This document shows positions 1-15,045 of a DNA stretch of 64,000 bases, piece after piece. The stretch's first letter is position 1, and each line of letters begins with the position of its first letter. The stretch comes from Sulfurimonas hongkongensis (GTDB lineage Bacteria; Campylobacterota; Campylobacteria; Campylobacterales; Sulfurimonadaceae), in contig NZ_AUPZ01000002.1 of NCBI RefSeq assembly GCF_000445475.1, positions 186,001-250,000 of the forward strand, given 5' to 3'. Under the pieces are notes generated by a model. That model was not told where the DNA came from and made no database searches. It was given only the letters and a program-made list of their open reading frames with translations. Position numbers and translations under genes: made by a program.

Positions 1-516
1 AGAGACCTCTTCTAAAGTTATGCTTTTTTTTACCACAACTTTGATTCCAAAATCTTCTATATATTTTATAATAACTCTCTGCATTATATTAGCAGCTTTT
101 AAAACTTCATCAGTCATTGTAAAAGTACTGTTTTCACCTATGACAAAGGGAATTACTCCTACTATTTTTGTAGATGGCAAATCTCCTAGCATCTCAATCA
201 TCTGGAGAGTTTGTAGCATCTCTACCTCATGAGCACTTCCATTCCATGTGATAAACTCAGGGACATCGCTAAAATCAAAGCTATAAACATCTCCAACTTT
301 TCCATCAACTACTTTTACACAGTCTATAAGTAAAACACTCTCATACTCTGTAATAATAGGAATCAATCTTTGTGCTAAAGTACCACCATCTAGGATATCT
401 ACGGTATGCTCATCAGATATAAACTCATATTTTTCATCTAGTAGATTTGCAAGATGAGGACCAATCCCCTCATCTCCAAACAGAATATTTCCAATACCAA
501 GAATTAAAATTTTCAA
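1..516 (-). CDS. hydD: [NiFe] hydrogenase maturation endopeptidase HydD/HyaD (partial)
   Basis: This gene encodes the nickel-dependent protease that trims the C-terminus of the hydrogenase large subunit after the NiFe site is assembled. The reading frame is open from a TTG at 514-516 to the window edge (172 codons, stop codon not seen). It begins MKILILGIGNILFGDEGIGP, which holds the GxGNxLxxDExxG signature; the Glu in this motif and the later Asp (LLIDCV) are the usual nickel-binding residues. A later GSAHEVE segment also fits the family. The TTG start is chosen because AGAGGA lies about 8 bases upstream and it follows the hydC stop by 16 bases. It is the fourth gene of the hydABCD operon, and its natural substrate is the HydB tail encoded two genes upstream. 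Confidence 0.9.
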   Translation of the reverse strand, partial: MKILILGIGNILFGDEGIGPHLANLLDEKYEFISDEHTVDILDGGTLAQRLIPIITEYESVLLIDCVKVVDGKVGDVYSFDFSDVPEFITWNGSAHEVEMLQTLQMIEMLGDLPSTKIVGVIPFVIGENSTFTMTDEVLKAANIMQRVIIKYIEDFGIKVVVKKSITLEEVS

Positions 517-532
517 AAGCTATTCCTCTGTA

Positions 533-1246
533 TTAGTGTTTTCTTTTCCATCTATATCCGCTAAATATAGAGTCAACTGTTCCCTCTTTGCCATAGACAG
601 CGTTAAAGACTACCATATAAACATGCCCAACTACAAAGATAATAACTCCCCACATAAGTATATGATGAAGCTCTCTAACCGCCGCTAATCCACCAATCAT
701 AGCTTCGATAACTCTCATTGAGTCATAGAGTATTGCACCTATTCCACCATGAAAGCTGTGAACATAGAGGATAAGTCCTGTTAGAATTAGACCACTTATT
801 GCAACATAAAAGACTACATAAGCCATTAGCTGTATAACATTATAGGCTCCACTTAGCTTTGGATGTTTTGTTAAGAGGAGATAATATCCTACCTGATTAA
901 GCCAATTTTTAAGACTAAAAAGATCTTTAAAAGAATTTATCTCAACCTTATCTTTAACAGAAAAAAAGAAGTAGTATGTTTTTCCTATAAACATAGATAT
1001 CATAATAAATCCAAAAATTTCATGTATACCTCTTAAATCTGCATTTAAAAAATTTGTCGGCTGGGCATTTACAGCTGGCACTATAAAAGGAACAGAGATA
1101 TAAAATCCTGTTACGGTTAGTATGATTATACTTAACACTCTAATCCAGTGATGCCATCTATAAAAAGAAGTAAATTCAAGCTCACGTTGGATTTTTTCAT
1201 CACTGTTTTTTAAAGAGCTTTGCTCTAATGTAGTAACACCTTGCAT
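533..1246 (-). CDS. hydC: Ni/Fe-hydrogenase b-type cytochrome subunit HydC
   Basis: This is the membrane cytochrome b that passes electrons from the periplasmic HydAB dimer to the quinone pool. The 237-residue protein has about four hydrophobic segments and membrane-placed histidines (RWHHWIR near the N-terminus, HEIFGF, HSFHGG, ELHHILMWG, VVGHVYM) expected of a di-haem family member. An in-frame ATG lies 54 bases further upstream, but it would overlap hydB by 44 bases. The ATG at 1246 is preferred because it has AGGGGGC about 6 bases upstream and follows the hydB stop by 10 bases. It is co-transcribed with hydA, hydB and hydD in the order known from Wolinella. Confidence 0.93.
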   Translation of the reverse strand: MQGVTTLEQSSLKNSDEKIQRELEFTSFYRWHHWIRVLSIIILTVTGFYISVPFIVPAVNAQPTNFLNADLRGIHEIFGFIMISMFIGKTYYFFFSVKDKVEINSFKDLFSLKNWLNQVGYYLLLTKHPKLSGAYNVIQLMAYVVFYVAISGLILTGLILYVHSFHGGIGAILYDSMRVIEAMIGGLAAVRELHHILMWGVIIFVVGHVYMVVFNAVYGKEGTVDSIFSGYRWKRKH

Positions 1247-1256
1247 AATAGCCCCC

Positions 1257-2990
1257 TTAAACCGTACATCCGCCATAAAGCGGATCAACTTTATACTCAC
1301 TTAGCACTTTGCCTTTAGTATCCATTACATGAACAGCACATGCTATACATGGATCATATGAGTGGATGATTCTAATTATCTCTATTGGTTGTGTCAAATC
1401 TTCTATCTTTAGACCGATTAAGTCAGCTTCATATGGTCCTTTTGAACCTTTAGCGTCCATAGGCCCAGCATTCCAAGTAGATGGAACAACTGTTTGATAG
1501 TTCTCAACAACTCCGTTTTTAATTCTAATCCAGTGACTAAGCATTCCACGAGGCACATCACCTAGACCTCTTCCTTTATACTCTTTGTTTTTATCAATCG
1601 TATAAGTTGCACAAGTCTCTTGATCAACTTTTAGGTTTTCTATAAGATTATTAAAAGCAACCAATGCGTTATCAGCTATAAGTTTAGTTTGTAGCATTCG
1701 CCCAGCTGTTCTTCCTAGAGTTGAAAACAGAGCACTAGCAGGTAGTCCTGTCTGCTCTAAAAATCCATTTACAACACTCTCTACTCTTTTGTTACCTTTT
1801 GCATAAGCAACTAAGATACAAGCAAGAGGTCCAACTTCCATAGGTTCGCCATCATATCTAGGTGATTTTATCCAGCTATATTTCTCTTTTTCATTAATAT
1901 TTTTTGAAGCTACCATCTTACCATCAGGTCCAACGCTTTGCCCATCTACAAAACCTGTATATTTAGGATTGTTTGTCCCATCATAAGGATGCTGTGGTTC
2001 TTCATCTTTGTACCAAGCATGCGTAGCTTCTTCTGTTATTTTATCTTCATCGATTTCAAAGACTTTACTCAAATCTCCGTTTTTAATGATGCCACTCTCA
2101 AAAAGATACTCATTCCTTCCTACCATAAACTCTCTATGAGCTAAAAAGTTTTTAACACCCATAGGTTTCATAACTGATGGCTCTGTTTTATACATCTGGG
2201 CTGCCATTACAATATCTGCGTAATAAGCATTATTTATAAATTCAGCAACATCTTGAAACTTAACAAGATACTCTCCCATTCTAGCTGGATTTAAAAGATC
2301 CATAACACAGGTAACACCACCAACTGCTAAACTTTGAGGATGTGGTTGTTTACCTCCAAATATCGCCATCATTTGTGCTACAGTTCTTTGAACCTCAAGC
2401 GCTTTTAAATAGTGAGAGAGTGCTATAAGGTTTTGCTCAGGAGAGAGTCTAAAGGTTTTATGACCCCAATATGCATTAGCAAAAGGCCCAAGTCCTTGAG
2501 GATTTTTAGCAAATTTTGCTATTTTTTCTTTCACCTTTTTCAGCTCATTCTCACCTGTTCCTATAGGATTTGGTGTATATTTAAATGCTAACTTACTAGC
2601 TTTTGCCTCATCAGCCGATAGTGCGGAGACTATATCTACCCAATCAACACCATGGAGATGATAAAAGTGAACAACGTGGTCATGCATAAATAGAGCAGCA
2701 AGCATAAGTGTTCTTACAAGTTCTGCATTATATGGTATTTTAATATCCAATGCGTCCTCCACTGCAACAGTACTTATTAGATAGTGTGAGTAGGTACAAA
2801 CACCACAGATTCTCTGCATCATTAGTGGTATATTTCTGGGGTCTCTTCCTTTGGCTATAACCTCTAAACCTCTCCATAGAGTTGACGATACAAAAGCATC
2901 TTGAACAACCCCATCATCTCCTACTATTACTTCAGCTCTTAAATGTCCCTCTATTCTTGTTATCGGGTCTACTATTACTCTTTTTGACAT
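1257..2990 (-). CDS. hydB: Periplasmic uptake [NiFe] hydrogenase large subunit HydB
   Basis: This is the catalytic subunit, which oxidises H2 at a NiFe(CN)2CO centre in the periplasm. The 577-residue chain has both ligand motifs of the family: RICGVCTYSH near residues 60-69 (Cys62, Cys65) and DPCIACAVH near residues 546-554 (Cys548, Cys551). A 23-residue tail after His554 is the expected substrate of the HydD protease. It has no signal peptide and would be carried across the membrane by the Tat signal of HydA. The spacing to hydA (12 bases) and hydC (10 bases) supports one transcript. The length and motif set fit group 1 membrane-bound uptake hydrogenases. Confidence 0.97.
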   Translation of the reverse strand: MSKRVIVDPITRIEGHLRAEVIVGDDGVVQDAFVSSTLWRGLEVIAKGRDPRNIPLMMQRICGVCTYSHYLISTVAVEDALDIKIPYNAELVRTLMLAALFMHDHVVHFYHLHGVDWVDIVSALSADEAKASKLAFKYTPNPIGTGENELKKVKEKIAKFAKNPQGLGPFANAYWGHKTFRLSPEQNLIALSHYLKALEVQRTVAQMMAIFGGKQPHPQSLAVGGVTCVMDLLNPARMGEYLVKFQDVAEFINNAYYADIVMAAQMYKTEPSVMKPMGVKNFLAHREFMVGRNEYLFESGIIKNGDLSKVFEIDEDKITEEATHAWYKDEEPQHPYDGTNNPKYTGFVDGQSVGPDGKMVASKNINEKEKYSWIKSPRYDGEPMEVGPLACILVAYAKGNKRVESVVNGFLEQTGLPASALFSTLGRTAGRMLQTKLIADNALVAFNNLIENLKVDQETCATYTIDKNKEYKGRGLGDVPRGMLSHWIRIKNGVVENYQTVVPSTWNAGPMDAKGSKGPYEADLIGLKIEDLTQPIEIIRIIHSYDPCIACAVHVMDTKGKVLSEYKVDPLYGGCTV

Positions 2991-3002
2991 ATCTATACTC
3001 CT

Positions 3003-4154
3003 CTATTCTTTAGGTTTTTTAACTAATGATATGGCGGCATGCGCCGCTATTCCAATTGCAGTTACAGTTAAAATTCCAACACCTATCTTATCCGCTGTTG
3101 CATCAGCACCGAGTCCTCCAAAGGTTGTATGATAGAGTCTATCACCTAGTGGTTCATGAACTATTCCCATTTTATCCCAAAAATCAGGTTCACTGCATCC
3201 CATACAGCCATGTCCTGCTTGAATTGGCCAAGATGTACCTTGATTAAATTTTTGTTTTGAGCAGTTGTTAAAGGTATAAGGTCCTTTACATCCTACTTTA
3301 TAAAGACAAAAACCATTTTTTGCGCCCTCATCACCAAACTCTTCTACAAACTCACCTGCATCAAATCTACCTCTCCTCTCACAAGCATCATGGATTCTAA
3401 GTCCATAAGCCCATTTTGGTCTGTTGTAAACATCAAGTGCTGGAAGAGTTCCATATAAAATAAAGTGAAATAGCGTTCCTACAATATTGCTCTCACTAGG
3501 AGGACAACCTGGAACATTTATAACTGGTCTGTTTGTTACATTACTAAGTGCTGTTGCATTTGTAGGATTTGGAGCTGCAGCTTGGACGCCACCAAAGGAT
3601 GAACATGTACCAATAGCAAAAATCGCAGCAGCATTTTGAGATGCATCTTTTGCACTCTGCTCTCCTGTTTTACCATGAGCACCGATTGTTAAAAAGTAAT
3701 CACTCTGCCCATGGGGGATACCACCTTCGACCATTAAGATATATCTACCCTTATATTTTTCAATAGCATGTTCGAGATTTTCCTCAGCCTGCCAACCAGC
3801 TGCTGCCATAAGTGTCTCATGATACTCAAGTGAAATATAATCAAATATCAGACTATCTATACTCGGTGTAGCAGTTCTAAGCAAAGATTCACTACATCCT
3901 GTACACTCTGCCATATGTAACCAAACTAAGGGAAGCCTATCAGCTAACTCTGCTGCCTTTGCAACAAGAGGAGTAAAACTAGCAGGCAACATCAGCATTG
4001 ATGTCATGGCTCCTGCCCAAGTCATAAACTCTCTTCTTGAAAAACCTTTCTCTTCAACCAATTTTGAGATTGAAACTTCCTCATCTAGTTTTGGTAGATT
4101 TGACAACTCTTCTAATCTAGAAGACAACTTGTTAAACAAACTATTACTCTCCAT
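3003..4154 (-). CDS. hydA: Periplasmic uptake [NiFe] hydrogenase small subunit HydA
   Basis: This is the iron-sulfur subunit that relays electrons from HydB to the cytochrome HydC. The 383-residue precursor has a long N-terminal extension with a Tat motif (SRREFM, Arg40-Arg41) followed by a hydrophobic stretch ending near AKA. It then has the proximal cluster motif AECTGCSES (Cys84, Cys87), GTCSSFGG, the GCPPSE segment, and a later Cys-rich region including GCMGCSEPDFW. A C-terminal hydrophobic helix (about residues 355-375) anchors it in the membrane. GGGGAG lies about 7 bases before the ATG. The gene starts the hydABCD operon, and its promoter carries a TetR-type operator at 4186-4203. Confidence 0.97.
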   Translation of the reverse strand: MESNSLFNKLSSRLEELSNLPKLDEEVSISKLVEEKGFSRREFMTWAGAMTSMLMLPASFTPLVAKAAELADRLPLVWLHMAECTGCSESLLRTATPSIDSLIFDYISLEYHETLMAAAGWQAEENLEHAIEKYKGRYILMVEGGIPHGQSDYFLTIGAHGKTGEQSAKDASQNAAAIFAIGTCSSFGGVQAAAPNPTNATALSNVTNRPVINVPGCPPSESNIVGTLFHFILYGTLPALDVYNRPKWAYGLRIHDACERRGRFDAGEFVEEFGDEGAKNGFCLYKVGCKGPYTFNNCSKQKFNQGTSWPIQAGHGCMGCSEPDFWDKMGIVHEPLGDRLYHTTFGGLGADATADKIGVGILTVTAIGIAAHAAISLVKKPKE

Positions 4155-4185
4155 AACATGCTCCCCATAATTTAATATTATCCTA

Positions 4186-4203
4186 AGAATGAATACTCAT
4201 TCA
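4186..4203. promoter_or_regulatory. Predicted TetR-family operator on the hydA promoter
   Basis: The 18-mer AGAATGAATACTCATTCA has perfect 6-base arms (GAATGA / TCATTC) around ATAC. From memory it matches 17 of 18 positions of the TGAATGA-MTAN-TCATTCA operator of the TetR-family regulator FadR of Bacillus. It covers the expected start of hydA transcription, just downstream of the -10 at 4209-4214, a position suited to repression. The TetR-type gene at 6445-7035 is the nearest candidate regulator. The link is inferred. Confidence 0.65.
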
Positions 4204-4208
4204 GTAAT

Positions 4209-4214
4209 AGTATA
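4209..4214 (-). promoter_or_regulatory. hydA promoter -10 element
   Basis: On the minus strand a TATACT hexamer follows a run of T residues and lies about 55 bases before the hydA start codon. No clear -35 is visible, as is common for campylobacterotan sigma-70 promoters. The predicted transcription start falls at the edge of the palindrome at 4186-4203. Confidence 0.55.
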
Positions 4215-4307
4215 CAAAAAAAACTTAATCTAAAATTAAAAAGATGTATATAACTATTATTTATATAATAAAGTCAAATTTAGTGTAGATTGTATAATTT
4301 TAAATTA

Positions 4308-5567
4308 TTAATGTGTAGTGCAGACCGAACAAACGTCAAATGATTTAAAAACAAGTTCTGCAGTTTTTATATCACTTAGTCCAACCATTGCTTTTTGCGA
4401 AACTCCTGGTTTTTCTCTTGTTCCACCACTTAAATTCCACTGTGTTGGAGTAATAATCTCATAATTTTTTATAATACCCTCTTCCAACTCAACTTTATGA
4501 ATCAGAGTTCCGCGTGCTGCCTCAACAGCAGAGTAACCACTGGAGGTAAGTTTTGAGATGTCAAACTCTGGCTCAATATATGAAGGCTCATCCAAATCTA
4601 TCTTATCTATCAGTTTTTTTGAATGATTTAAAAGCTCTAATATCTCAAAAACTCTTGCTAAGATTCTACTAAAGAGACTATCACCATACTTTTTATGAGC
4701 ATCTACTACAAGAGTTGTTTTATTTACCATAGCACGGGCAAGTGGTCCTACTTCATAGTACTTGTCTTTATAGCTTACATTTTTAGCAAATGATGATGGC
4801 ACTTCAGACTCTTTTACATCTTTTAGTGAAATACTGTGACTTACTCTTGCCTTTAGCGACTTGCCTTTTTTAAAAAAACTATTTTCCCCAAAAGCTATAA
4901 ACCTATCATAACTCTTTGCATGATTTAGCATATCTCTTTTTTTTATCTCTATTAATATTTCTGGTAAATCTCCAGAAAAATCTAAAAGTGCATCTGCATC
5001 TTTACATGCTAAGAGTGTTTTACTATCTACTTTTACCAAGTTATCCTCTACAAACTTAAGTGTTTGAGTTATATAACTCTCTATTTTTATAATGTCCATT
5101 TGAGTGATTTCACAAACTACTCCACCAACAACTGCATAAGAAGTATGAGGATATTGTCCACCTAAAGCTGCTATAGCTTTGCCCATAAGTTGCGTCGGAT
5201 ATGTTGCTTTTAATATCTGTTGTTTATGCCCAAAAAAAGGCAACATTGTTAGATAAAACCACTTAAAATGGTTTTGAATAAGCTCAAAATTAAGAGTTAG
5301 CTCTCTTATGGCTTTTGCTTTATTTGAGAGCTGTAGATTGTTATAGCAACTCTCTAGTGCCTCAACTGTAGCTATAAGATGTGCATGACCACAGATGCCA
5401 CAGACCCTTGGATTTATCACAAGTGCGTCAAAAGCTCTTTTGTCTCTTAAGATATTTTCAATATTTCTTGTTGACATAAACTCAACATCCACAAAATCAA
5501 TCTTGTCATCTTTAAAATTAAAGTTGAGCTTTGCTTCGCCCTCTATTTTTTCTATCAATTTAATCAT
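4308..5567 (-). CDS. hupL: Cytoplasmic group 2-like [NiFe] hydrogenase large subunit
   Basis: This is the second hydrogenase catalytic subunit of the window and is clearly distinct from HydB. The 419-residue protein has the first NiFe ligand motif RVCGICGHAH (about Cys56 and Cys59) and ends exactly on the second, DVCSVCTTH, with the stop codon right after the ligand-motif His. The C-terminal peptide that maturation proteases normally remove is therefore missing, as in H2-sensing (HupV/HoxC-type) hydrogenases, and the usual Pro of DPC is Val. The ATG at 5567 is used; a TTG one codon earlier is possible. It overlaps hupS by 8 bases and has no export signal. It could be a sensor or a cytoplasmic H2 oxidiser, and the sequence does not settle which. 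Confidence 0.88.
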   Translation of the reverse strand: MIKLIEKIEGEAKLNFNFKDDKIDFVDVEFMSTRNIENILRDKRAFDALVINPRVCGICGHAHLIATVEALESCYNNLQLSNKAKAIRELTLNFELIQNHFKWFYLTMLPFFGHKQQILKATYPTQLMGKAIAALGGQYPHTSYAVVGGVVCEITQMDIIKIESYITQTLKFVEDNLVKVDSKTLLACKDADALLDFSGDLPEILIEIKKRDMLNHAKSYDRFIAFGENSFFKKGKSLKARVSHSISLKDVKESEVPSSFAKNVSYKDKYYEVGPLARAMVNKTTLVVDAHKKYGDSLFSRILARVFEILELLNHSKKLIDKIDLDEPSYIEPEFDISKLTSSGYSAVEAARGTLIHKVELEEGIIKNYEIITPTQWNLSGGTREKPGVSQKAMVGLSDIKTAELVFKSFDVCSVCTTH

Positions 5568-6441
5568 CAAACAACTTCTTCTCTAATCTGTCAATTTTAA
5601 ACGCTTTTGTGATTCCAGCAAGAGTAAGATAAGCTCTTTTGCTAACACCAACAGGCAGGTTCTCAGGAATGGACATATTTTTTTTCGTACTAAAGAGGTT
5701 TTGCCTTGGAAAGCTAGGTTCAGTACAACCCATACAAGGAAGCCCTGCTCTAGTTTTTGAATTTACCTCATTCCAAAGTATCTTATTGCAACTCCCATGT
5801 GTAAAAGGCGCTTGACAGCCATGCTCATAATACATACATCCCTCAAGCTCTCCAAATTTGTGATTATCTACTTTATACTCAAAATATTCGTTTCTTGTAC
5901 AACCATTATGAACAGTATAAGCATAAAATGCTTTTGGTCTTAAAAAGCCATCAAGCCTTAATGTAGTGCTCTTTTTAATAGCATAGAGAGTATTTACCAA
6001 AACTTCTGGATGAATAGGACAACCCGATATTGAAATCGTTTTATCTAACAAATATTTAAAGTTTTCTATCTGCTTTTCTTGGTCAAAATGTAGTCCTGAA
6101 GTGTTTTTATAACCACTCTCTCTAAAAATACCCCCAAAAGTTGCGCATGTACCAACGGTAACTATTTTTTGCACTATCTTAGAGTATTTTTCAATTATAT
6201 CTACAATCGATACATCCGCTCTTTTAAACTCCCTTGATATCGCACCCTCTATAAGCAGGATATCACATGAAATAAGTTTTGAGACTATATCTTGTAGCAG
6301 ATACTTAGAATCTATAACTGGATGATAAATAAATTCAAAGTCATCTAAGAATGTTTCCATATATGGATAGTTTAAAAATGAGTGAGTATTACCATTGCAA
6401 GAGATGGCACTAAGCCATAAAATTCTCATCTTTTTTTTCAT
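5560..6441 (-). CDS. hupS: Cytoplasmic group 2-like [NiFe] hydrogenase small subunit
   Basis: This is the iron-sulfur partner of the adjacent large subunit. The 293-residue protein has no Tat leader, so it stays in the cytoplasm. Its proximal-cluster segment reads LSAISCNGNTHSF (Cys15), the C-x-G-N-T type seen in group 2 small subunits rather than the CTGC type of HydA. Further cluster segments are GTCATFGG, SGCPIHPE, HNGCTRNEYF, an EHGC-containing segment, and GLPCMGCTEPSFP near the C-terminus. It starts 3 bases after the TetR-type gene, so regulator and hydrogenase are one operon. No electron-accepting subunit is encoded beside it. Confidence 0.88.
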   Translation of the reverse strand: MKKKMRILWLSAISCNGNTHSFLNYPYMETFLDDFEFIYHPVIDSKYLLQDIVSKLISCDILLIEGAISREFKRADVSIVDIIEKYSKIVQKIVTVGTCATFGGIFRESGYKNTSGLHFDQEKQIENFKYLLDKTISISGCPIHPEVLVNTLYAIKKSTTLRLDGFLRPKAFYAYTVHNGCTRNEYFEYKVDNHKFGELEGCMYYEHGCQAPFTHGSCNKILWNEVNSKTRAGLPCMGCTEPSFPRQNLFSTKKNMSIPENLPVGVSKRAYLTLAGITKAFKIDRLEKKLFDD

Positions 6442-6444
6442 AAT

Positions 6445-7035
6445 CTACTCAGCGCTGAGGGCTTTGTATATATTAAATGTTATGTCCTCTACATAGTCAT
6501 TTAAATCTTTTGGCAAAATATTTTCGCCTTTTAAAAAAACCATACCACCCAAATAACCCATAAAAAGTCCAAAAGCACTAAAGAAGTCTTGTTCTCTTAA
6601 ATCTCCACACTTAACACCCTCTTCAAAGTAGATCATAATCTCTGTAACAAACTCATTTACACAGAGCATGCCCTCACAACTATCTTTAAAAACTTCACGA
6701 TTAGATAGGTATATCCTTAAAAAATAGTCTATCATCTCAGGTTTTAGCGAGGCAGTTTTAAAATACATCTCTACTATTTTTCTTGTTTTTTCTTTAGTAG
6801 ATATATCCTCTTCATTTATCTCTTTTAGTTTTTCTCCTAAATATATAGAGATGTACTTTATGATTTCACTCGCTAATATATCTTTAGATTTAAAATAGTT
6901 ATACATGTTACCAACGCTCATCTTAAGAGATTTAGCAATATCAGGTATAGTAGTACTGTAAAATCCTCTTGAGGCAAATAACTCTAGTGCGCACTGTATT
7001 ATCTGCTCTTTTTTTAACTTCTTTTTGTCTAACAA
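6445..7035 (-). CDS. TetR/AcrR-family transcriptional regulator
   Basis: The N-terminal part is a typical TetR helix-turn-helix (IIQCALELFASRGFYSTTIPD, then SVGNMYNYFKSKD), followed by a helical ligand-binding domain of about 140 residues. An ATG exists at 7059, but it lies only 6 bases after a TATAAT at 7066-7071. The TTG at 7035 has AGGAGAG 4 bases upstream and is preferred. The gene directly precedes hupS. I infer that it controls hydrogenase expression, because the only TetR-like palindrome I found nearby sits on the hydA promoter. The ligand is unknown. Confidence 0.85.
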   Translation of the reverse strand: MLDKKKLKKEQIIQCALELFASRGFYSTTIPDIAKSLKMSVGNMYNYFKSKDILASEIIKYISIYLGEKLKEINEEDISTKEKTRKIVEMYFKTASLKPEMIDYFLRIYLSNREVFKDSCEGMLCVNEFVTEIMIYFEEGVKCGDLREQDFFSAFGLFMGYLGGMVFLKGENILPKDLNDYVEDITFNIYKALSAE

Positions 7036-7065
7036 AACACTCTCCTGCTCAATTAACATAGCAAG

Positions 7066-7071
7066 ATTATA
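7066..7071 (-). promoter_or_regulatory. Promoter -10 of the tetR-hupS-hupL operon
   Basis: A consensus TATAAT on the minus strand lies about 30 bases before the preferred TTG start of the TetR-type gene. Its closeness to the upstream ATG at 7059 argues that this ATG is not used. Confidence 0.6.
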
Positions 7072-7232
7072 CTATAAATATTCTATGTTTTTAAATTACT
7101 GAAATCCTTTAGCTAGCTCTTTGGGTCCCTCTTTTTAGATGGAATGCATACATAAGTTAATCTATACTAAAATATCTAAATGCGAATATCAATATAGAGA
7201 GTTAAAGAACAAAGCAAGAGAAAAAAACTAAG

Positions 7233-7250
7233 TTCACAATAACTTCACAA
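7233..7250 (+). promoter_or_regulatory. Direct repeat TTCACAA with 11-base period, candidate response-regulator site
   Basis: Two TTCACAA copies (7233-7239 and 7244-7250) are spaced by one helical turn, the arrangement typically bound by OmpR-type regulators. They lie about 60 bases before the tolC-like gene. The operon encodes its own OmpR-type regulator at 11561-12217, so autoregulation is a reasonable inference. Confidence 0.5.
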
Positions 7251-7308
7251 GTACTTTGTAAGATACAAAATACAAATCTTGTGTTTTTAAAGAGAGGATT
7301 TTACTATA

Positions 7309-8565
7309 ATGAAATTTTTGTTTTTACATATATGCCTTTTTGGCTTAATACTCCAAGCAAATATCTTAACACAGCAAGAGTGTATAGATAAAACGCTTAA
7401 AAATCATCCTGATATCAAAAAGCTATCTCTTAGCGTCAATAGAGCTGATGCTGCTGTCGGAATTGCAAAAGCTGATTATCTGCCTCAAATAGATGCAAAT
7501 GCACAATATAATCCCATCAATACTTTTGTGATGCCACAAAGTGGACACTTCAACACTATAGAAGATGATAGCTGGCAAGCTGGTGTAGAACTCAATCAAA
7601 AAATCTATGATTTTTCTAAAACCACATCTAATATTAACGCTTCTAAAAAGGATAAAGAGATAGCATCTTTGTACTTAGGTGACCAAAAAGCCCTTCTGGC
7701 TTATAGTGTAAAGATTCAGTACAACATTGTACTTCTTCAAACAAAAGCACTTGAGGTAAGAAAAAAAGATCTCCAAACAAAAGAAGAGCTCTACAATCAA
7801 GCAAAAGCCTTTGTAAAAGAGGGTTTAAAAACTGAGGCCGATGCCCTAAGCCTTCTTAGTGCGATGTATATAGCAGAAGATAGTCTTGCCCAGACTGAGT
7901 CTGAACTTGACAAAGCTCTCTCAACTCTCTCTTTATATATGGGAGAAAAAATAGATTCGCACACCAAATTTGAAGATAGTAGTATATTAAATAATAGTAC
8001 TATAGAAGACTCTGAAGTTCTTCTTGAGAGTATCCTAGCAAATAACTATGAAGCAAAGAGCAAAGAGCAACAGGTATATAGAGATGAGTTTTTGTATAAA
8101 GCTTCAAAAGCCGGGCACTATGGCTCCATAGATGCTATAGCATCATATACACATCAAGATACTCTAAACGAATATGACACCTCACAAGTAGGCATATCTA
8201 TCAACATCCCTATCTATAGTGGTGGAAGAGTAAGTGCAGAAGTCCAGCAAAAACGCATAGCAAAAGATGAGTCAAAAGAGGCTTATAACTCTAAAAAATT
8301 ACTTCTTGAAGATGAGATGCAACGGCTTATAATTGACTTAAAAAAGTTCAAACATACAGTAAAAGCCAAAGAGGCCCTGCTAGAGTCTTCACAAGCTACT
8401 AAAGATATTGTTGAGGCTAGATATAAAGAAGGACTCTCAACTTATATAGAAGTTCTTGATGCATCTTCAACTTATCTGTTTGCTAACTTAGGACTCTTAG
8501 AAGCCAAATTTAGTATAAATAACATTATCAACAGACTAGACTACTTACAAGGAATCATACAATGA
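7309..8565 (+). CDS. TolC-family outer membrane efflux protein
   Basis: The 418-residue protein starts with a signal peptide (KFLFLHICLFGLILQA) and continues with two long helical, coiled-coil-rich repeats joined by short beta segments (near VGISINIPIYSGG), the layout of TolC-type outer membrane channels. GAGAGGA precedes the ATG. It overlaps the adaptor gene by 4 bases and forms the outer part of an export system completed by the next three genes. The exported substrate cannot be told from the sequence. Confidence 0.9.
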   Translation: MKFLFLHICLFGLILQANILTQQECIDKTLKNHPDIKKLSLSVNRADAAVGIAKADYLPQIDANAQYNPINTFVMPQSGHFNTIEDDSWQAGVELNQKIYDFSKTTSNINASKKDKEIASLYLGDQKALLAYSVKIQYNIVLLQTKALEVRKKDLQTKEELYNQAKAFVKEGLKTEADALSLLSAMYIAEDSLAQTESELDKALSTLSLYMGEKIDSHTKFEDSSILNNSTIEDSEVLLESILANNYEAKSKEQQVYRDEFLYKASKAGHYGSIDAIASYTHQDTLNEYDTSQVGISINIPIYSGGRVSAEVQQKRIAKDESKEAYNSKKLLLEDEMQRLIIDLKKFKHTVKAKEALLESSQATKDIVEARYKEGLSTYIEVLDASSTYLFANLGLLEAKFSINNIINRLDYLQGIIQ

Positions 8566-9707
8566 AGACATGGATAAAATATAGTATAGGTGCATTAATT
8601 ATTGCTCTAGGGGTTTTTGTTTTTTACAACAAGGTATATGTAGAAAAATCAACTTTTAGTACGATAAAGCCTGTTTATGGGGATCTGTTTGTAAGTATCA
8701 GAGGGATTGGAAATGTAGATGCAAAAAACATCTATACAATTACAGCACAGAGTGGTGGAAAGATACAAAACATCTATTATGATGAAGGAGAATGGATAAA
8801 AAAAGGGGATTTGCTCCTAAATATAGACCCTGTAGATCTGCCTATGCTCTTAGATGAACAAAGAGTAGCACTTAAAAAAGCTAGACATGAAGTTCGTACC
8901 ACCAAGAGTAATCTTGAGAGCCTAGAAGCCCAAAGATCACTTCTATTAGTAACTTATAGTCGCTACAAAAAACTACTAGAAGATAGATATGCTACTCAAG
9001 CAGAGTTTGACAAGGCTGAGAGTGACTTACAAAACATGGATGCACAAATAGATGCGGCAAAAGCAAAGATTGCATCTGCTAAACTTGAGATTCAAAGATT
9101 AGGTAAAACAATAGAAGCCTCGCAAGAAAAGCTAAAAAGACTCAAAATTTACGCTCCCTCTGATGGATATATAATCTCAAAAGATGCAGAGTTAGCACAA
9201 TATGTTCTACCATCAACTCCAATCTTTAAGATAGTTGATCCTAAAACACTCTGGGTTGTTGTAAACGTAGATGAGAGACTTGCCCATAGTGTAAAACTAG
9301 GTCAAGATGCGTCCATAGTGTTAAGATCTCAAAAAGATAAAAAACTTCAAGGAGTTGTTAAAAGAGTTGTAGCTATTAGTAATGCTGTAACACTTGAGAG
9401 AGAGATAGCAGTAGCGTTCAAAGTTACTCCAAGTAAGTTTTACATAAATGAACAAGCAGAAGTAAATATAAAAACCACAAAGCATGAAAATGTCTTAAAA
9501 ATTCCCATCACTCTCATCCGCACAAAAGAGTCTAAAAAAGGTGTTTGGGTAGTAAAAGATGATAGAGCTTATTTTACACCTATAACTATTTTGGCACAAA
9601 ATGATGATGAGGTTGCTGTATCTGATGGTATTAATAGGGATACAGAACTAATCATACATAAAAGTTCAAATAAACCACTTAGCGATGGTATGAAGATATT
9701 TAGATGA
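8562..9707 (+). CDS. Periplasmic adaptor (HlyD/MacA-type membrane fusion protein)
   Basis: The 381-residue protein has one N-terminal membrane anchor (IGALIIALGVFVFY), then lipoyl half-domains (the first near GGKIQNIYYDEGEWIKKGD, the second near LKIYAPSDGYI), separated by a coiled-coil hairpin of about 100 residues, and C-terminal beta-barrel domains. This is the layout of adaptors that join an inner membrane transporter to a TolC channel. Four-base overlaps with the genes on both sides indicate translational coupling. Confidence 0.92.
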   Translation: MKTWIKYSIGALIIALGVFVFYNKVYVEKSTFSTIKPVYGDLFVSIRGIGNVDAKNIYTITAQSGGKIQNIYYDEGEWIKKGDLLLNIDPVDLPMLLDEQRVALKKARHEVRTTKSNLESLEAQRSLLLVTYSRYKKLLEDRYATQAEFDKAESDLQNMDAQIDAAKAKIASAKLEIQRLGKTIEASQEKLKRLKIYAPSDGYIISKDAELAQYVLPSTPIFKIVDPKTLWVVVNVDERLAHSVKLGQDASIVLRSQKDKKLQGVVKRVVAISNAVTLEREIAVAFKVTPSKFYINEQAEVNIKTTKHENVLKIPITLIRTKESKKGVWVVKDDRAYFTPITILAQNDDEVAVSDGINRDTELIIHKSSNKPLSDGMKIFR

Positions 9708-10849
9708 TTAATTTAGCTGCAAGAGATATAAAACACACCCTTGGTAAGTTTATAGCAACTGCTATGGGTGTTGGTATGCTCCTTGGAATTGTTCTTATTA
9801 TGATTGGTGTTTATCGCGGGATGATAGTTGAAGCTGAGATTTTACTAAATGATATAGATGCAGACTTATGGATAGTTCAAGAGAACACTTTAGGACCATT
9901 TGCTGAGTCTTCAAGAGTTCATGAAGACCTTAAAGATATCATCTATGTTATGAATGGCATAGAGAGAAGTGAAGCTATGACTTTTCAAAATATTCAACTC
10001 CCAAGTGCTAGTAAACCTGTTAGAGTTTTTGCTGTAGGTTTTGATATCCATGGAACATTTAATCCAATAAACCCAGATAGATTGATAGCTGGGCGTGAAC
10101 TTAAAAATGACCACTATGAGATTGTTGTAACAGATACAACAGGCTTTAAGCTAGATGAGAGAATAAAACTTGGAAGAAATTTTTATAGGGTTGTTGGAAT
10201 AACAACAAAAACAGTCTCAAACAATGGAGACCCTTTGGTTTATCTCAGTCTAAAAGATGCTCAAGAGTTGCAATTTTTATACTCAAACAAAGAGATACAA
10301 AACAATGTTGCAAGAGGGGTAGAAAATACTGAATCTAATATGGTCAACACTATCGTTGCTAAGGTAAAAGAGGGTTTTGAGATAGATGAAGTGGCCCAAG
10401 AGATTAGAAAGTGGCAACATAAGAGTGTTTATACAGCAAAGGGGCAAACTGATATTTTAATAAAAAACCTAATTGAGAAGTCAGCGGTACAGATAGGTCT
10501 TTTTACAGTTATTTTAATTGTTGTATCAACTATCATCATAGCACTCATTATCTACACCATGACGCTAGAGAAGATGAAAGAGATAGCCATCATGAAACTT
10601 ATGGGACTACCAAACTCTCTTATCATAGAGATGATTGTTAAAGAGACTATACTCTTAGGTATTTTTGCTTTTATTTTTGGAAATATCTTTTCACATCTCA
10701 TTTATGATAGCTTTCCAAAGTTAGTAGTCTTGCAAATCCCTGACGCATGGGCGTTGTTTGGAGTTATTTTAGTAGCTTCCATCTTAGCTTCTTTTGTTGG
10801 TGTAAATAAAGTTATAAGTGCTGATCCAGCAGCTGCTATTGGAGGATGA
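9704..10849 (+). CDS. ABC transporter permease, FtsX/MacB (DevC-like) family
   Basis: The 381-residue protein has an N-terminal transmembrane helix, a large periplasmic domain of the MacB-core type (about residues 40-240), and three C-terminal transmembrane helices starting near LFTVILIVVSTIIIALIIYT. This is the MacB/FtsX topology. The ATPase is a separate chain encoded directly downstream, as in DevBCA and LolCDE rather than the fused MacB. It probably works with the adaptor and TolC-like protein as a mechanotransmission exporter. Confidence 0.9.
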   Translation: MINLAARDIKHTLGKFIATAMGVGMLLGIVLIMIGVYRGMIVEAEILLNDIDADLWIVQENTLGPFAESSRVHEDLKDIIYVMNGIERSEAMTFQNIQLPSASKPVRVFAVGFDIHGTFNPINPDRLIAGRELKNDHYEIVVTDTTGFKLDERIKLGRNFYRVVGITTKTVSNNGDPLVYLSLKDAQELQFLYSNKEIQNNVARGVENTESNMVNTIVAKVKEGFEIDEVAQEIRKWQHKSVYTAKGQTDILIKNLIEKSAVQIGLFTVILIVVSTIIIALIIYTMTLEKMKEIAIMKLMGLPNSLIIEMIVKETILLGIFAFIFGNIFSHLIYDSFPKLVVLQIPDAWALFGVILVASILASFVGVNKVISADPAAAIGG

Positions 10850-10850
10850 T

Positions 10851-11540
10851 ATGAGCAAACATAGTGCTATAAAGGTTAAAGACCTTGTAAAACACTTTGG
10901 CAAAGATGATAATCTAGTTAGAGTTATAGAGGGTGCTTCATTTGAGATACAAAAGGGAGAAGTTGTAGCTCTAATAGCTCCTAGTGGTGCTGGAAAAACT
11001 ACCCTTTTGATGATGATTGGCTGTGTTACAGAGCCAACAAGTGGAGAAATTTGGCTCGGGGAAGATTTGGTTTATAAGAATAAGTGGATGGCTAAAGATA
11101 CTCGTAAGATACGTAGAGAGAAGATTGGCTTTATCTTTCAATCTCACTATCTTATCCCTTTTTTAAATGTTTTAGAAAACATAACACTACTGCCTCAGGC
11201 AAACGATGTAAGTCAAAAAGATGCTCAGATAAAAGCCATGGAGCTACTTAAATATCTCGAAATTGATGACAAAGCGCACAATATGACATCACAACTCTCT
11301 GGCGGACAGAACCAAAGGGTTGCCATCGCAAGAGCACTAGCAAACAACCCAGAGATCATACTAGCAGATGAGCCAACAGCAGCGTTAGATGGTGAAAGAG
11401 CAGTTAGTGTAATTAAGATGCTTAAAAAGATAGCATCTGAACAAAATGTTGCCATCATCACCGTTACTCATGATGATAGAATTCTTCCCTATTGTGATAG
11501 AATAATGAAAATACAAGACAGAGCTATTGTTTTTGAGTAG
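10851..11540 (+). CDS. ABC transporter ATP-binding protein (LolD/MacB-like)
   Basis: The 229-residue ATPase has a Walker A (APSGAGKTT), a Q-loop region (GFIFQSHYL), the signature LSGGQ (in QLSGGQNQRVAIARAL) and a Walker B with D-loop (ILADEPTAALD). The first Gly of Walker A is Ala (APSG rather than GPSG). An earlier in-frame ATG at 10818 would overlap the permease by 32 bases; the ATG at 10851 has GGAGG just upstream and is used. It powers the permease encoded immediately before it. Confidence 0.93.
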   Translation: MSKHSAIKVKDLVKHFGKDDNLVRVIEGASFEIQKGEVVALIAPSGAGKTTLLMMIGCVTEPTSGEIWLGEDLVYKNKWMAKDTRKIRREKIGFIFQSHYLIPFLNVLENITLLPQANDVSQKDAQIKAMELLKYLEIDDKAHNMTSQLSGGQNQRVAIARALANNPEIILADEPTAALDGERAVSVIKMLKKIASEQNVAIITVTHDDRILPYCDRIMKIQDRAIVFE

Positions 11541-11560
11541 TCAGTGGAGGTACTGCTTTT

Positions 11561-12217
11561 ATGAAGATTTTATATCTTGAAGATGATATAAACCTATCTC
11601 AAACTTTAAAAGAATTTTTAAGCGATGAAGGTTTTGATGTTACTTGTGTTTATGATGGCGAAGATGCGCTACAAGAAGTCTATAGTTCAAACTTTGATAT
11701 CTTACTCTTAGATGTCAATGTTCCTCATATCAATGGATTTGAACTTTTAAAAGAATTAAGAGAGACAAAGACAAATACCCCAGCTATCTTTATAACTTCC
11801 CTAAATGGTATAGATGATCTCTCAAGAGGATTTTTAAGTGGTGCTGATGACTATATTAAAAAACCATTTGAATTAAAAGAGCTACTTTTAAGGATCAATG
11901 CTCTTTTAAAAAGAGTGTATAAAACACAAGAGAGCATCATGCAAATAACGCAAAATATAGAGTTTAATATACACAGCGATGAGCTAAAAAAAGATGATAA
12001 AATAATTACTCTAAAACATAAAGAGTCTCTTCTTTTAAAACTTCTACTAAAACACAAAAATGAGTGCGTGAGCTTTGATGATATCTATCAAAATGTTTGG
12101 AGTTTTGATGAAGAACATAGCTATATGAGCTTAAGAACATACATAAAAGAGCTGCGTAAATATCTTGGCAAAGAGCGGATACTTAGCATAAAAAAACTTG
12201 GATATAAGCTTGTATAG
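11561..12217 (+). CDS. OmpR-family response regulator
   Basis: The 218-residue regulator has a receiver domain with acidic residues EDD near position 7, a phospho-acceptor Asp51 (LLLDVN) and the conserved Lys of KKPFE, followed by a winged-helix DNA-binding domain (residues about 125-218, ending SIKKLGYKLV). It sits between the export ATPase and its histidine kinase and overlaps the kinase by 20 bases. The 11-base-period direct repeat at 7233-7250 is a candidate binding site, which would make the operon autoregulated. Confidence 0.93.
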   Translation: MKILYLEDDINLSQTLKEFLSDEGFDVTCVYDGEDALQEVYSSNFDILLLDVNVPHINGFELLKELRETKTNTPAIFITSLNGIDDLSRGFLSGADDYIKKPFELKELLLRINALLKRVYKTQESIMQITQNIEFNIHSDELKKDDKIITLKHKESLLLKLLLKHKNECVSFDDIYQNVWSFDEEHSYMSLRTYIKELRKYLGKERILSIKKLGYKLV

Positions 12218-13361
12218 AGGTGAGAAAAAAAGCATCATCTATGTGCTTGGACTCTATCTTAGTTCTACACTTTTACTCATTACCACTCTTTTTATAAGTT
12301 ATTACTACTACGAACAAGAACAGTTTGCACATAGTGAAAAAGATCTTTTAAAAAAATATACTCTTCTTCTAACACAACAGCTCTCCGAGCTAAATGAAAA
12401 GAGCAGCGAGAGATATAGATATCCTAGATTTAATGAATTTGAGAGTGCCATCTATGATATAGATAAGAACCTCATCTTTAGCACAAGCAAAGATATAGAT
12501 ATAACAAAGTTTAAAGATGATTTTTTTACAAAGGAGTCCAACTCTTATTTTATTTCGTCACTTACACCCTACTATTTTGGCGCTGCTTACATTATTATAG
12601 AAAAAAAGTCTAAGCATCTTGACATTTTAGATAATCTTATATTTATTGCTATTGTTACGATTATAATAACCTTAGTTACCTCTGTTTTTCTTGTTAATCT
12701 TGTCCTAAGACCTATGAGAGAGAACATAAAACTTCTTGATAGCTTTATAAAAGATACTACACATGAGCTAAACACACCCATCACTGCAATACTTACAAAT
12801 ATAGAGACTATAGACTCTTCAAATTGTGATGAGAAAACATTAAGAAAACTAAAACGCATAAAAATAGCATCACAAAGTATCTCAAATATCTATGAAGACT
12901 TAGTCTATATACTCTTAAACCACAGAACATCTACTCAAAATATAGACCTTAATCTAAAAGAGATGCTGCACCAAAGAGTAGAATATTTCACAGAAATGGC
13001 ACATACAAAAAAGATAGACTTTACCTTAGATATAGAAAAAGATGTCTACTTCAAAGCTGATAAAAAAAAGATACAGAGACTCATAGATAACCTCATATCA
13101 AATGCAATTAAATATAGCTACAAAGCCACAACTATAAAGATCATCTTAAAGTATTCTTCTCTTATCATCGAAGATGAAGGAAAAGGTATGAGTAAGCAAG
13201 AGGTTAAAAACATCTTTACAAGATATTTAAGATTTGACAAGTCTCAAGGTGGTTTTGGCATAGGATATAGCATCATAAAGTCTATAGCCGATGAATACAA
13301 GATAAAGATAGACATAGTCTCAAAGCAAAACCAAGGAACAAAGGTAGCTCTATCATGGTAA
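12198..13361 (+). CDS. Membrane sensor histidine kinase
   Basis: The 387-residue kinase has two transmembrane helices (about residues 13-35 and 147-170) enclosing a periplasmic sensor domain of roughly 110 residues with no family I recognise. The H-box is KDTTHELNTPI with His189. The catalytic domain has the N-box (DNLISNAIKYS), G1 (DEGKGM) and G2 (GGFGIGYSI). The start is a TTG at 12198; another TTG at 12210 would shorten the overlap with the response regulator. It is the cognate kinase of the regulator encoded before it and presumably senses the exported substrate or envelope stress. Confidence 0.9.
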   Translation: MDISLYRGEKKSIIYVLGLYLSSTLLLITTLFISYYYYEQEQFAHSEKDLLKKYTLLLTQQLSELNEKSSERYRYPRFNEFESAIYDIDKNLIFSTSKDIDITKFKDDFFTKESNSYFISSLTPYYFGAAYIIIEKKSKHLDILDNLIFIAIVTIIITLVTSVFLVNLVLRPMRENIKLLDSFIKDTTHELNTPITAILTNIETIDSSNCDEKTLRKLKRIKIASQSISNIYEDLVYILLNHRTSTQNIDLNLKEMLHQRVEYFTEMAHTKKIDFTLDIEKDVYFKADKKKIQRLIDNLISNAIKYSYKATTIKIILKYSSLIIEDEGKGMSKQEVKNIFTRYLRFDKSQGGFGIGYSIIKSIADEYKIKIDIVSKQNQGTKVALSW

Positions 13362-13681
13362 GACTCTTAAGTGTTTTTCTTCTTTTTTACATAACCCTAG
13401 GTGCTTCGGAGTTTGATAAAAACTGCTTTGACTGCCACGGTAAAGATTTTAAATTTCATATTATTATGAAAAAATACACACTTAAATATAGTAGTGAAAA
13501 AAGGATAAAAGAGGCTATGTTTGACTACCTAAGAGAGCCAAGTCCTGAAAAGTCTATTTTGCCTTTAGAATATATACAAAAGTTTGGTTTAAAAGAAAAA
13601 AGTCCCCTTGATGATAAGACTTTAAGAGAGATGATAGATATCTACTACGATAGATTTAATCTTCAATCTAAGCTTTTTTAA
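13355..13681 (+). CDS. Small secreted c-type cytochrome-like protein
   Basis: The 108-residue protein has a signal peptide (VRLLSVFLLFYITLGAS) and one haem c attachment motif, CFDCH, right after the predicted cleavage site. The rest is helical and charged. It overlaps the histidine kinase gene by 7 bases, so it belongs to the efflux/two-component operon, where a periplasmic haem protein is unexpected. It might serve as a redox or ligand-sensing partner of the kinase, but that is inference. It overlaps the convergent next gene by 4 bases at the 3' ends. Confidence 0.8.
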   Translation: MVRLLSVFLLFYITLGASEFDKNCFDCHGKDFKFHIIMKKYTLKYSSEKRIKEAMFDYLREPSPEKSILPLEYIQKFGLKEKSPLDDKTLREMIDIYYDRFNLQSKLF

Positions 13682-15045
13682 CTATCACTCAATTTTCTTA
13701 TATCTTTAACAGCATTAATAGCAGCTGGTAAGAGTGATTCACTAAGTGCCGGATGGATATATAACATCTCTTTTAGATGCCGTATATCATTATCTATATG
13801 CATAACAGTAAGAACTTGATGGATCATCGTTGAGCTTTGCGGTCCTATCATATGACAACCGAGTATCTCATAAGTTTTTTTATCTACAATAAATTTTGTA
13901 AAAGGATATTTTAGCTTCATTGACTCTGCTTTTGCACTCGTTAACCAATCTGTTTTTGACACTACTGCATCTAAATCTTTCTCTTTTGCTTCTTGCTCAC
14001 TTATACCTACACTTGCAATCTCAGGATCTGTAAAAACAGAGTGTGGCATATATTTAAATTTCAATGGCTCTTTTTTATCTTCAAATAAGTATTTATAAAG
14101 ATGATTTATCTCAAAAGATGCAGCATGTTGTAACATGTGCTCCCCTGCTGCATCTCCTGCAACATATACACCCTTAGCATCTGTTTGGAAAAACTCATCT
14201 CTTTTTATAAAGCCTCTCTTATCTAAGGCAATGTGAGTATTTTCTAAGTTTAAAGTTTTTGCATTTGATTCTCTTCCTATTGCATAAAGTAGAGCTTCTG
14301 AGGTATGTTTTTTAATTTTACCAGCCTTATCTTCTAGTATTATGTCAAAAAAAGAGTCATTATATATTGCATCTTTTATTGTTGTGTTAAATTCTATATC
14401 AATCTTTTTGGAAAACTCTTGCTTAAATACTTTGGATATATCCTCATCTTCATTTGAGAGAAGTCTCTCACTCCTTACTAAGAGTTTTGTTTTTACACCC
14501 AACGCATCAAACACATTTGCTAGCTCACAAGCAATAAAACCAGAACCTACGATTGTAATAGAGCTTGGGATTTTATTTAAAGGAAAGATATCATCACTAC
14601 TCCAAGCCTCTTTAAAAGGTGGTTTTTTAGGTTTTGTTCCTGTTGCAATAACTATTTTTGGTGCTGTTAATTTTACACCATTAACTTCCACTATGCTATC
14701 TGAGACAAAAGAACCTATACCTCTAAAGAGTTCTACATTTTCATTTAACATAGCTTTATACTCTCCATCAACACTAGCAATATATTCGTTATTTTCTTTA
14801 AATATCTTTTTAATGTCAATATTATCAATACTGCTTCTTACATAGTGTCTTTGTGACTCTTTTATACTCCGCAAAACATCAGCATAGCCAACTAAAAGTT
14901 TTGAAGGAACACAGCCTCTATTTGCACAAGTACCTCCAAGCTTAGACTTTTCAATCAGAGCAACCCTTTTACCTAATCTACCAACTTTTGCAGCTAATCT
15001 AGAGGCTCTTCCACCCCCAATTATAATTAAATCATATATCTTCAT
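13678..15045 (-). CDS. FAD-dependent pyridine nucleotide-disulfide oxidoreductase (mercuric/dihydrolipoyl reductase-like)
   Basis: This is a class I flavoprotein disulfide reductase of 455 residues from the preferred ATG at 15045, which has AAAAGG upstream. It has an FAD-binding GGG motif (IIIGGGRAS), the redox pair in GGTCANRGCVPSK (Cys40, Cys45), a second nucleotide-binding motif (IVGSGFIACE), a second FAD segment (GVYAGD-like, VYVAGDAAG) and a C-terminal HPALSE segment in which the family His-Glu pair is present. Substrate specificity within the family (lipoamide, mercuric ion, mycothione) is not readable here. No mer or lipoate-complex genes are nearby. Confidence 0.88.
   Translation of the reverse strand: MKIYDLIIIGGGRASRLAAKVGRLGKRVALIEKSKLGGTCANRGCVPSKLLVGYADVLRSIKESQRHYVRSSIDNIDIKKIFKENNEYIASVDGEYKAMLNENVELFRGIGSFVSDSIVEVNGVKLTAPKIVIATGTKPKKPPFKEAWSSDDIFPLNKIPSSITIVGSGFIACELANVFDALGVKTKLLVRSERLLSNEDEDISKVFKQEFSKKIDIEFNTTIKDAIYNDSFFDIILEDKAGKIKKHTSEALLYAIGRESNAKTLNLENTHIALDKRGFIKRDEFFQTDAKGVYVAGDAAGEHMLQHAASFEINHLYKYLFEDKKEPLKFKYMPHSVFTDPEIASVGISEQEAKEKDLDAVVSKTDWLTSAKAESMKLKYPFTKFIVDKKTYEILGCHMIGPQSSTMIHQVLTVMHIDNDIRHLKEMLYIHPALSESLLPAAINAVKDIRKLSDS

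Follow-up and report, generated by a model that had tools for sequence, protein, structure and literature searches.

A TetR-type regulator paired with a group 2 hydrogenase is a candidate repressor of respiratory hydrogenase in Campylobacterota and Aquificota

Cytosolic group 2 hydrogenases without a C-terminal peptide are known, together with a regulator of respiratory hydrogenase, from the HoxBC/HoxJ/HoxA and HupUV/HupT/HupR systems (group 2b), and absence of this peptide is a property of hydrogen-sensing hydrogenases. To our knowledge, the timing control of H2 respiration in free-living Campylobacterota and Aquificota is largely unknown. Here we describe a locus from a 64,000-nucleotide stretch of Sulfurimonas hongkongensis (contig NZ_AUPZ01000002.1, positions 186,001 to 250,000; hereafter the window), part of a campylobacterotal genome of 2.3 Mb, in which the gene of a TetR-type regulator (tetR) is followed by hupS and hupL of a group 2 hydrogenase and by hydABCD of a respiratory group 1 hydrogenase. 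In the accessible text of two papers, the same gene pair appears in the same kinds of organism as the group 2d hydrogenases, namely Aquifex Hase III and HuaSL/HupSL of Campylobacterota (PMC10052474, PMC12286921), and the first of them calls the function of these enzymes unresolved, possibly regulatory. A TetR-like gene before hupSL was noted in Sulfurospirillum multivorans and was proposed, in the available part of that study, to encode a hupSL repressor (Kruse 2017, PMC5357620).

On comparative sequence evidence, we consider it reasonably probable that TetR serves as a dedicated repressor for the group 1 respiratory hydrogenase, paired with HupSL and responding to H2 through a redox switch at a C-x4-C motif. 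The pairing of TetR with its operator, hyd and HupL, as well as the invariance of the two cysteines, was read directly from the compared genomes, and control of the respiratory hydrogenase through a palindrome on the hydA promoter is strongly supported by them. The features of the locus, in the order of transcription, are as follows.

6445..7059, minus strand: tetR, TetR-family regulator of 204 amino acids (aa) (Pfam TetR_N, 49.1 bits against a cut-off of 24; predicted local distance difference test (pLDDT) of the model, 88; FadR-like fold; Cys128 and Cys133 invariant)
5560..6441, minus strand: hupS, group 2 hydrogenase small subunit of 293 aa (Pfam Oxidored_q6 and NiFe_hyd_SSU_C; alignment)
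4308..5570, minus strand: hupL, group 2 hydrogenase large subunit (Pfam NiFeSe_Hases; best PDB relative 7utd; C-terminal end CSVCTTH)
4209..4214, minus strand: TATACT, the probable -10 box for hydA, with a T run and TG before it (seen in the sequence)
4187..4202, minus strand: predicted operator GAATGAGTATTCATTC (hydA strand), with the T at 4203 before it (motif scans, aligned sites)
3003..4154, minus strand: hydA, small subunit of a respiratory group 1b-type hydrogenase, with the Tat motif RREFM (TIGR00391, 518.9 bits)
1257..2990, minus strand: hydB, large subunit with a C-terminal peptide (Pfam, 698 bits)
533..1300, minus strand: hydC, cytochrome b subunit; a long open reading frame (ORF) whose true start is probably internal (ORF; synteny)
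1..516, minus strand: hydD, hydrogenase maturation protease, truncated at the edge of the window (synteny, translation)

The spacing of tetR, hupS and hupL is that of one operon, as the earlier note on this DNA had claimed, with a gap of 3 bases between tetR and hupS and an overlap of 11 bases between hupS and hupL. The sequence GAATGAATACTCATTC at 4187-4202 is a perfect 6+6 dyad and agrees at 17 of 18 positions with what we take to be the FadR-type consensus. Within the window it is the sole copy at 0 or 1 mismatch; at up to 2 mismatches there were three matches against 4.4 expected, the two additional ones being at chance level. A scan of the whole genome for GAATGA-N4-TCATTC, which the earlier note had called for, did not find many sites before unrelated genes: the only exact copy lies on the hydA promoter, and one further copy with 1 mismatch lies within a flavoprotein ORF, compared with 13 hits of the backward control pattern at up to 1 mismatch. 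A looser pattern, RAATGANNNNTCATTY, was uninformative (4 sites in the same genome, 7 for its backward control).

On the hydA strand, the dyad starts 6 bases past TATACT, and 32 bases separate its end from the hydA start codon. That it covers the hydA transcription start is plausible from the TATACT box, the T-rich DNA and the TG upstream, and a TAnnnT motif within 14 bases before the site at 35 of 41 loci, compared with 14 to 31 of these loci when the offset is moved upstream, gives modest support for the -10 box; the hydA promoter was not among the predictions of a generic promoter scan. TTAAGT as a -35 box was dropped because its spacing to the -10 box varies. A site just downstream of a -10-like box has the geometry of a repressor site. 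Some TetR proteins, those of the LuxR/HapR class, are activators, but with the site a few bases past the box and over the likely start point, activation of hydA in place of repression is extremely unlikely.

TetR orthologs were found in 56 of 149 relatives (E ≤5.6e-74; paralogs 1.1e-53 and weaker), and tetR-hupS-hupL followed by hydABC(D) was the rule among their loci. The site was scanned for in the 250 bases before hydA; seven of the 54 initial hydA loci from TetR-bearing genomes were mis-hits (31-36% identity, hupS) and were removed, leaving 47 true loci. The site occurred with up to 1 mismatch at 36 of these and with up to 2 mismatches at 41, compared with 0.0 and about 0.9, respectively, in shuffled sequences. 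Aligned sites gave the consensus T-GAATGAnTATTCATT(C/T). Two types of hydA carry it, at different distances to the gene (22/26 for type 1 and 19/21 for type 2, the latter about 52% identical to the hydA of the window). The same scan before tetR, hupS and hydB gave chance numbers only; the upstream regions of tetR had a site with up to 2 mismatches in 3 of 54 cases, against 1.05 expected, and none at this threshold lies upstream of tetR in the window, as the earlier note had stated. These counts bear on the proposal, made for S. multivorans in the accessible text of Kruse 2017 (PMC5357620), that TetR represses its own hupSL operon, in which case the hyd palindrome would not be its target. The position of tetR as the first gene of the operon fits such autoregulation, and an inverted repeat AACATAG...CTATGTT, unlike the hyd operator, spans the tetR start at 7055-7089. 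Since the palindrome follows TetR and hydA and not the tetR promoter, we regard this proposal as very improbable.

Of the 42 TetR-less genomes with a HydA match, 27 served as controls; in the remaining 15 the match was for the most part a fragment or of the fused type of 800 aa. No site with up to 2 mismatches was found in the 600 bases before hydA in any of the 27. Two of these genomes are of the same genus as the window (G041 and G045, the latter only 65% complete) and have HydA proteins 86% and 90% identical to that of the window; with HydA proteins this close, absence of the site goes with absence of the regulator. The site thus tracks TetR across many families and into Aquificota and does not precede hydA in the TetR-less genomes, which strongly supports, at the level of sequence, the earlier claim that TetR controls the respiratory hydrogenase through the palindrome.

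The site also stands before hydA copies that are distant from tetR, either about 750 kb away (G068) or on other contigs (G141, G083, G036), and before second hydA copies in G062, G073 and G042. Of 13 further hydA copies in TetR-bearing genomes, one has only 110 bases of upstream sequence (G144); at up to 2 mismatches the site was found in 9 of the 12 readable ones, including a hupL-hydA junction on another contig in both G110 and G125, and it was not found in G074 or at two copies in G111 (G111a, G111b). When TRAATGANTRTTCATTY was scanned at zero mismatch in 16 genomes, 14 sites were obtained, 10 of them at hydA loci. The remaining four are in G062, G068, G104 and G148, the last two being from family f16, with neighbour genes not read. 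The first two precede a Cache/chemoreceptor gene (L214, 1501-1517; G062) and a small cytochrome-like gene (L233, 1501-1517; G068) and may be extra targets. One-mismatch sites, only part of which were read, were near the control level in most of the 16 genomes. With zero-mismatch sites mostly at hydA loci, a wider regulon is not supported.

A profile search of named genomes extended the same TetR to Aquificota at 54-57% identity, with Persephonella and Aquifex among the genera. Within Aquificaceae, tetR is a neighbour of hydAB with no hupSL there, and HupL was present in all eight Aquificota genomes checked. All seven Aquificota loci with hydA beside tetR carry the site with up to 2 mismatches (L125, L127, L128, L131, L136, L250, L254), and an Aliarcobacter relative (L133) has both TetR and sites before hydA. 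By ORF reading, a diguanylate cyclase (L128, 1495-2370) or a [2Fe-2S]-type ferredoxin (L136, 9579-9869) lies between tetR and hydA in Aquificota.

Besides its TetR_N DNA-binding domain, the protein has the nine-helix TetR fold, as judged from the model and its structure matches. The closest structural matches include FadR of Bacillus subtilis (Z 19.6; root-mean-square deviation 2.3 over 185 residues; TM 0.78), and together with the FadR-like operator this raises the alternative of a conventional small ligand for TetR, an acyl-CoA for instance. Such Z values are, however, common among TetR proteins, and the score against the NCBIfam FadR equivalog model was 45.8 bits, below the cut-off of 200. 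The sites stand at hydrogenase promoters and not at lipid ones: none was seen before fatty acid degradation genes, the only exact site of the window's own genome being at hydA and the two non-hydA sites that were read not being at lipid genes. The conserved part of the protein, moreover, is the C-x4-C loop with helix 8. We therefore hold a small ligand to be improbable.

The mean pairwise identity over 49 loci was 67.5% for the TetR sensor domain, 68.1% for the DNA-binding domain, 55.3% for HupS and 49.2% for HupL, and reached 77.9% for TetR residues 120-182. Cys128 and Cys133 of the C-x4-C motif were invariant in 55 of 55 covering rows (of 57; the TetR ORF calls are short in L034 and L052), 52 of 52 named loci and 20 of 20 Aquificota loci, sets that partly overlap. 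Both sit in the loop that joins helices 6 and 7, a stretch in which the confidence of the model falls, as would be expected if a cofactor is lacking or the loop is a flexible switch. Because the motif is invariant and the sensor domain is as conserved as the DNA-binding domain, the signal of TetR is probably fixed and most likely redox. Among three TetR paralogs near hydrogenase genes (L085, 14080-14667; L087, 16507-17085 and 15879-16484), two lack both cysteines and one keeps them.

The partner, HupSL, is a group 2 type hydrogenase by sequence. It has two subunits with the L1/L2 cysteine motifs RVCGIC and CSVC in the alignment, and its nearest solved relatives are the large subunit chains of Hydrogenase-2 (7utd); the subgroup label 2d follows the papers that describe gene pairs of this kind in relatives. 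No signal peptide was seen at the HupS N-terminus, from which HupSL is taken to be cytosolic, and the operon contains no partner subunits. HupS keeps the cysteine ligands of the medial and distal clusters and has CxxN for CxxC in the proximal cluster, the second cysteine of which is Asn in most copies and Asp or Cys in a few. HupL stops at CxxCxxH without a C-terminal peptide in 51 of 51 full-length sequences (53 rows; the L051 row is not a HupL and L078 is cut), and the peptide is likewise absent from all 38 full-length sequences of a second set (43 rows; 5 are cut or mis-hits, and L085 occurs in both sets). The last His of this motif is replaced by Q or K in several genera, Sulfurovum and Sulfurospirillum among them.

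HupL was never found without TetR, either in the 53 HupL genomes among the 149 relatives or in the 37 genomes with full-length HupL among 81 Aquificota (Fisher tests 3e-37 and 6e-20, uncorrected for kinship). Among the 37 Aquificota pairs, the two genes are adjacent in 14, 11-14 kb apart in 6 and 190-735 kb apart on the same contig in 6, and lie on different contigs in 11. This co-occurrence argues against the main rival, in which TetR still acts at the operator as the repressor of hydABCD while its C-x4-C motif reads a cue other than H2 (sulfide or persulfide, an oxidant, a metal or general redox), HupSL being merely a co-useful enzyme such as a ferredoxin reducer. The rival finds support in G082, where TetR, operator and hydA are kept without HupL. 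As the HupL-less genomes show, HupSL is not strictly needed to keep the regulator, which leaves a direct redox or persulfide sensor as the main rival. Most TetR carriers are, furthermore, sulfur and hydrogen lithotrophs, and TetR repressors in which a cysteine switch responds to reactive species, AltR and NemR, are described in the available text of PMC13178969. On the other side, the co-occurrence is perfect from HupL to TetR even where the genes are unlinked, HupL lacks the C-terminal peptide as hydrogen-sensing hydrogenases do, and the group 2d enzyme of A. aeolicus was barely detectable in extracts according to the part of PMC10052474 at hand. A cue other than H2 is thus rather unlikely, though it deserves to be kept in view.

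The earlier suggestion that the neighbouring hydrogenase sets the activity of TetR is supported only indirectly, by the co-occurrence in 53/53 and 37/37 genomes, by the lack of a HupL peptide and by data from Aliarcobacter butzleri, in the transcriptome of which both hynAB sets were up and huaSL was down with H2 (ISME J 2025, PMC12286921; accessible text). The last result is compatible with H2 control through TetR/HupSL and is no proof of it. Several observations weigh against our reading, of this suggestion or of repression itself. The A. butzleri comparison was H2 versus acetate, in which carbon and redox effects are mixed (same text). Three genomes have TetR without HupL: G074 and G082 among the 149 relatives and G182 in Aquificota. 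In S. multivorans, as given in the available part of PMC5357620, hydB is constitutive and hupL is hardly transcribed, data that would fit only if the TetR of that operon is not made. At six of the 47 true hydA loci (L050, L061 and four of family f16), the 250 bp hold no sequence within 2 mismatches of the site, and the site of Sulfurospirillum diekertiae (L103) is weak, with 2 mismatches. The four f16 loci (L063, L065, L067, L068) carry a diverged AAATGAATATTTATTT-like dyad 55-58 bases before hydA. Other TetR cases without HupL are G144, at a contig end, among the 149 relatives, and in Aquificota G173 (a fragment) and G166, which has stops in the matched stretch; as the positions of these stops were not placed, a claim of tetR decay in G166 was dropped. 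In G074 (L043), tetR has a group 4 hydrogenase operon on one side and hypF on the other, by eye, and no HupL was found in the genome.

From this material we infer DNA binding, the sign of control, the redox switch and H2 as the signal. A TetR dimer would bind the consensus site over the start point of hydABCD and block transcription, and would act in trans on other hydABC operons too. TetR and the cytosolic HupSL would work as a functional pair, usually from one operon. In the presence of H2, HupSL would oxidise it and pass electrons, directly or by ferredoxin, to TetR, where they would alter the state of the C-x4-C loop (dithiol/disulfide, metal or Fe-S site); the altered TetR would leave the DNA, and hydABCD would be made. 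We put forward, tentatively, that a group 2d hydrogenase may in this way read H2 and hand electrons, not phosphate, to TetR as a kinase-free switch in Campylobacterota and Aquificota. If true, this switch would give the group 2d hydrogenases their missing function. The finding names a regulator, an operator and a partner, and predicts which hydrogenase operons are under their control.

A divergent operon at 7309-13361 encodes, by eye, an outer-membrane efflux protein, a membrane fusion protein, an ABC permease and ATPase, and a two-component pair.

The locus shares features with several known systems and differs from each. With Bacillus FadR, the TetR has in common the fold, the DNA-binding domain and presumably the operator type, but its target genes are others, its sensor domain has the C-x4-C motif and its score is far under the cut-off of the FadR model. 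NemR and AltR are likewise TetR repressors with a cysteine switch (PMC13178969, accessible text), whereas the cysteine position and the targets differ and no hydrogenase is involved there. NikR and Fur of Helicobacter pylori also control a campylobacterotal hydABC operon, as far as the available text goes (PMC6682613), but they are metal regulators, and the TetR-less hydA loci that were read are without the present operator. The accessible parts of the literature found on group 2d hydrogenases connect none of them with a repressor whose operator lies at the respiratory hydrogenase, the TetR of Kruse 2017 being a possible hupSL repressor only, and a literature search, with subscription journals largely outside it, returned no report of this operator or of TetR acting on hydABC. 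No PAS histidine kinase with an NtrC-type regulator was among the ORFs in 1-14000 of the window (HoxJ was not looked for elsewhere in the genome), the only two-component pair there, at 11561-13361 after the efflux operon, being by eye an OmpR-like regulator with a membrane kinase. The recurrence of this arrangement in two phyla suggests an undescribed hydrogen-control switch, in which, unlike in the HoxBC and HupUV systems, the regulator would be a one-component TetR repressor with a predicted operator on the hydA start.

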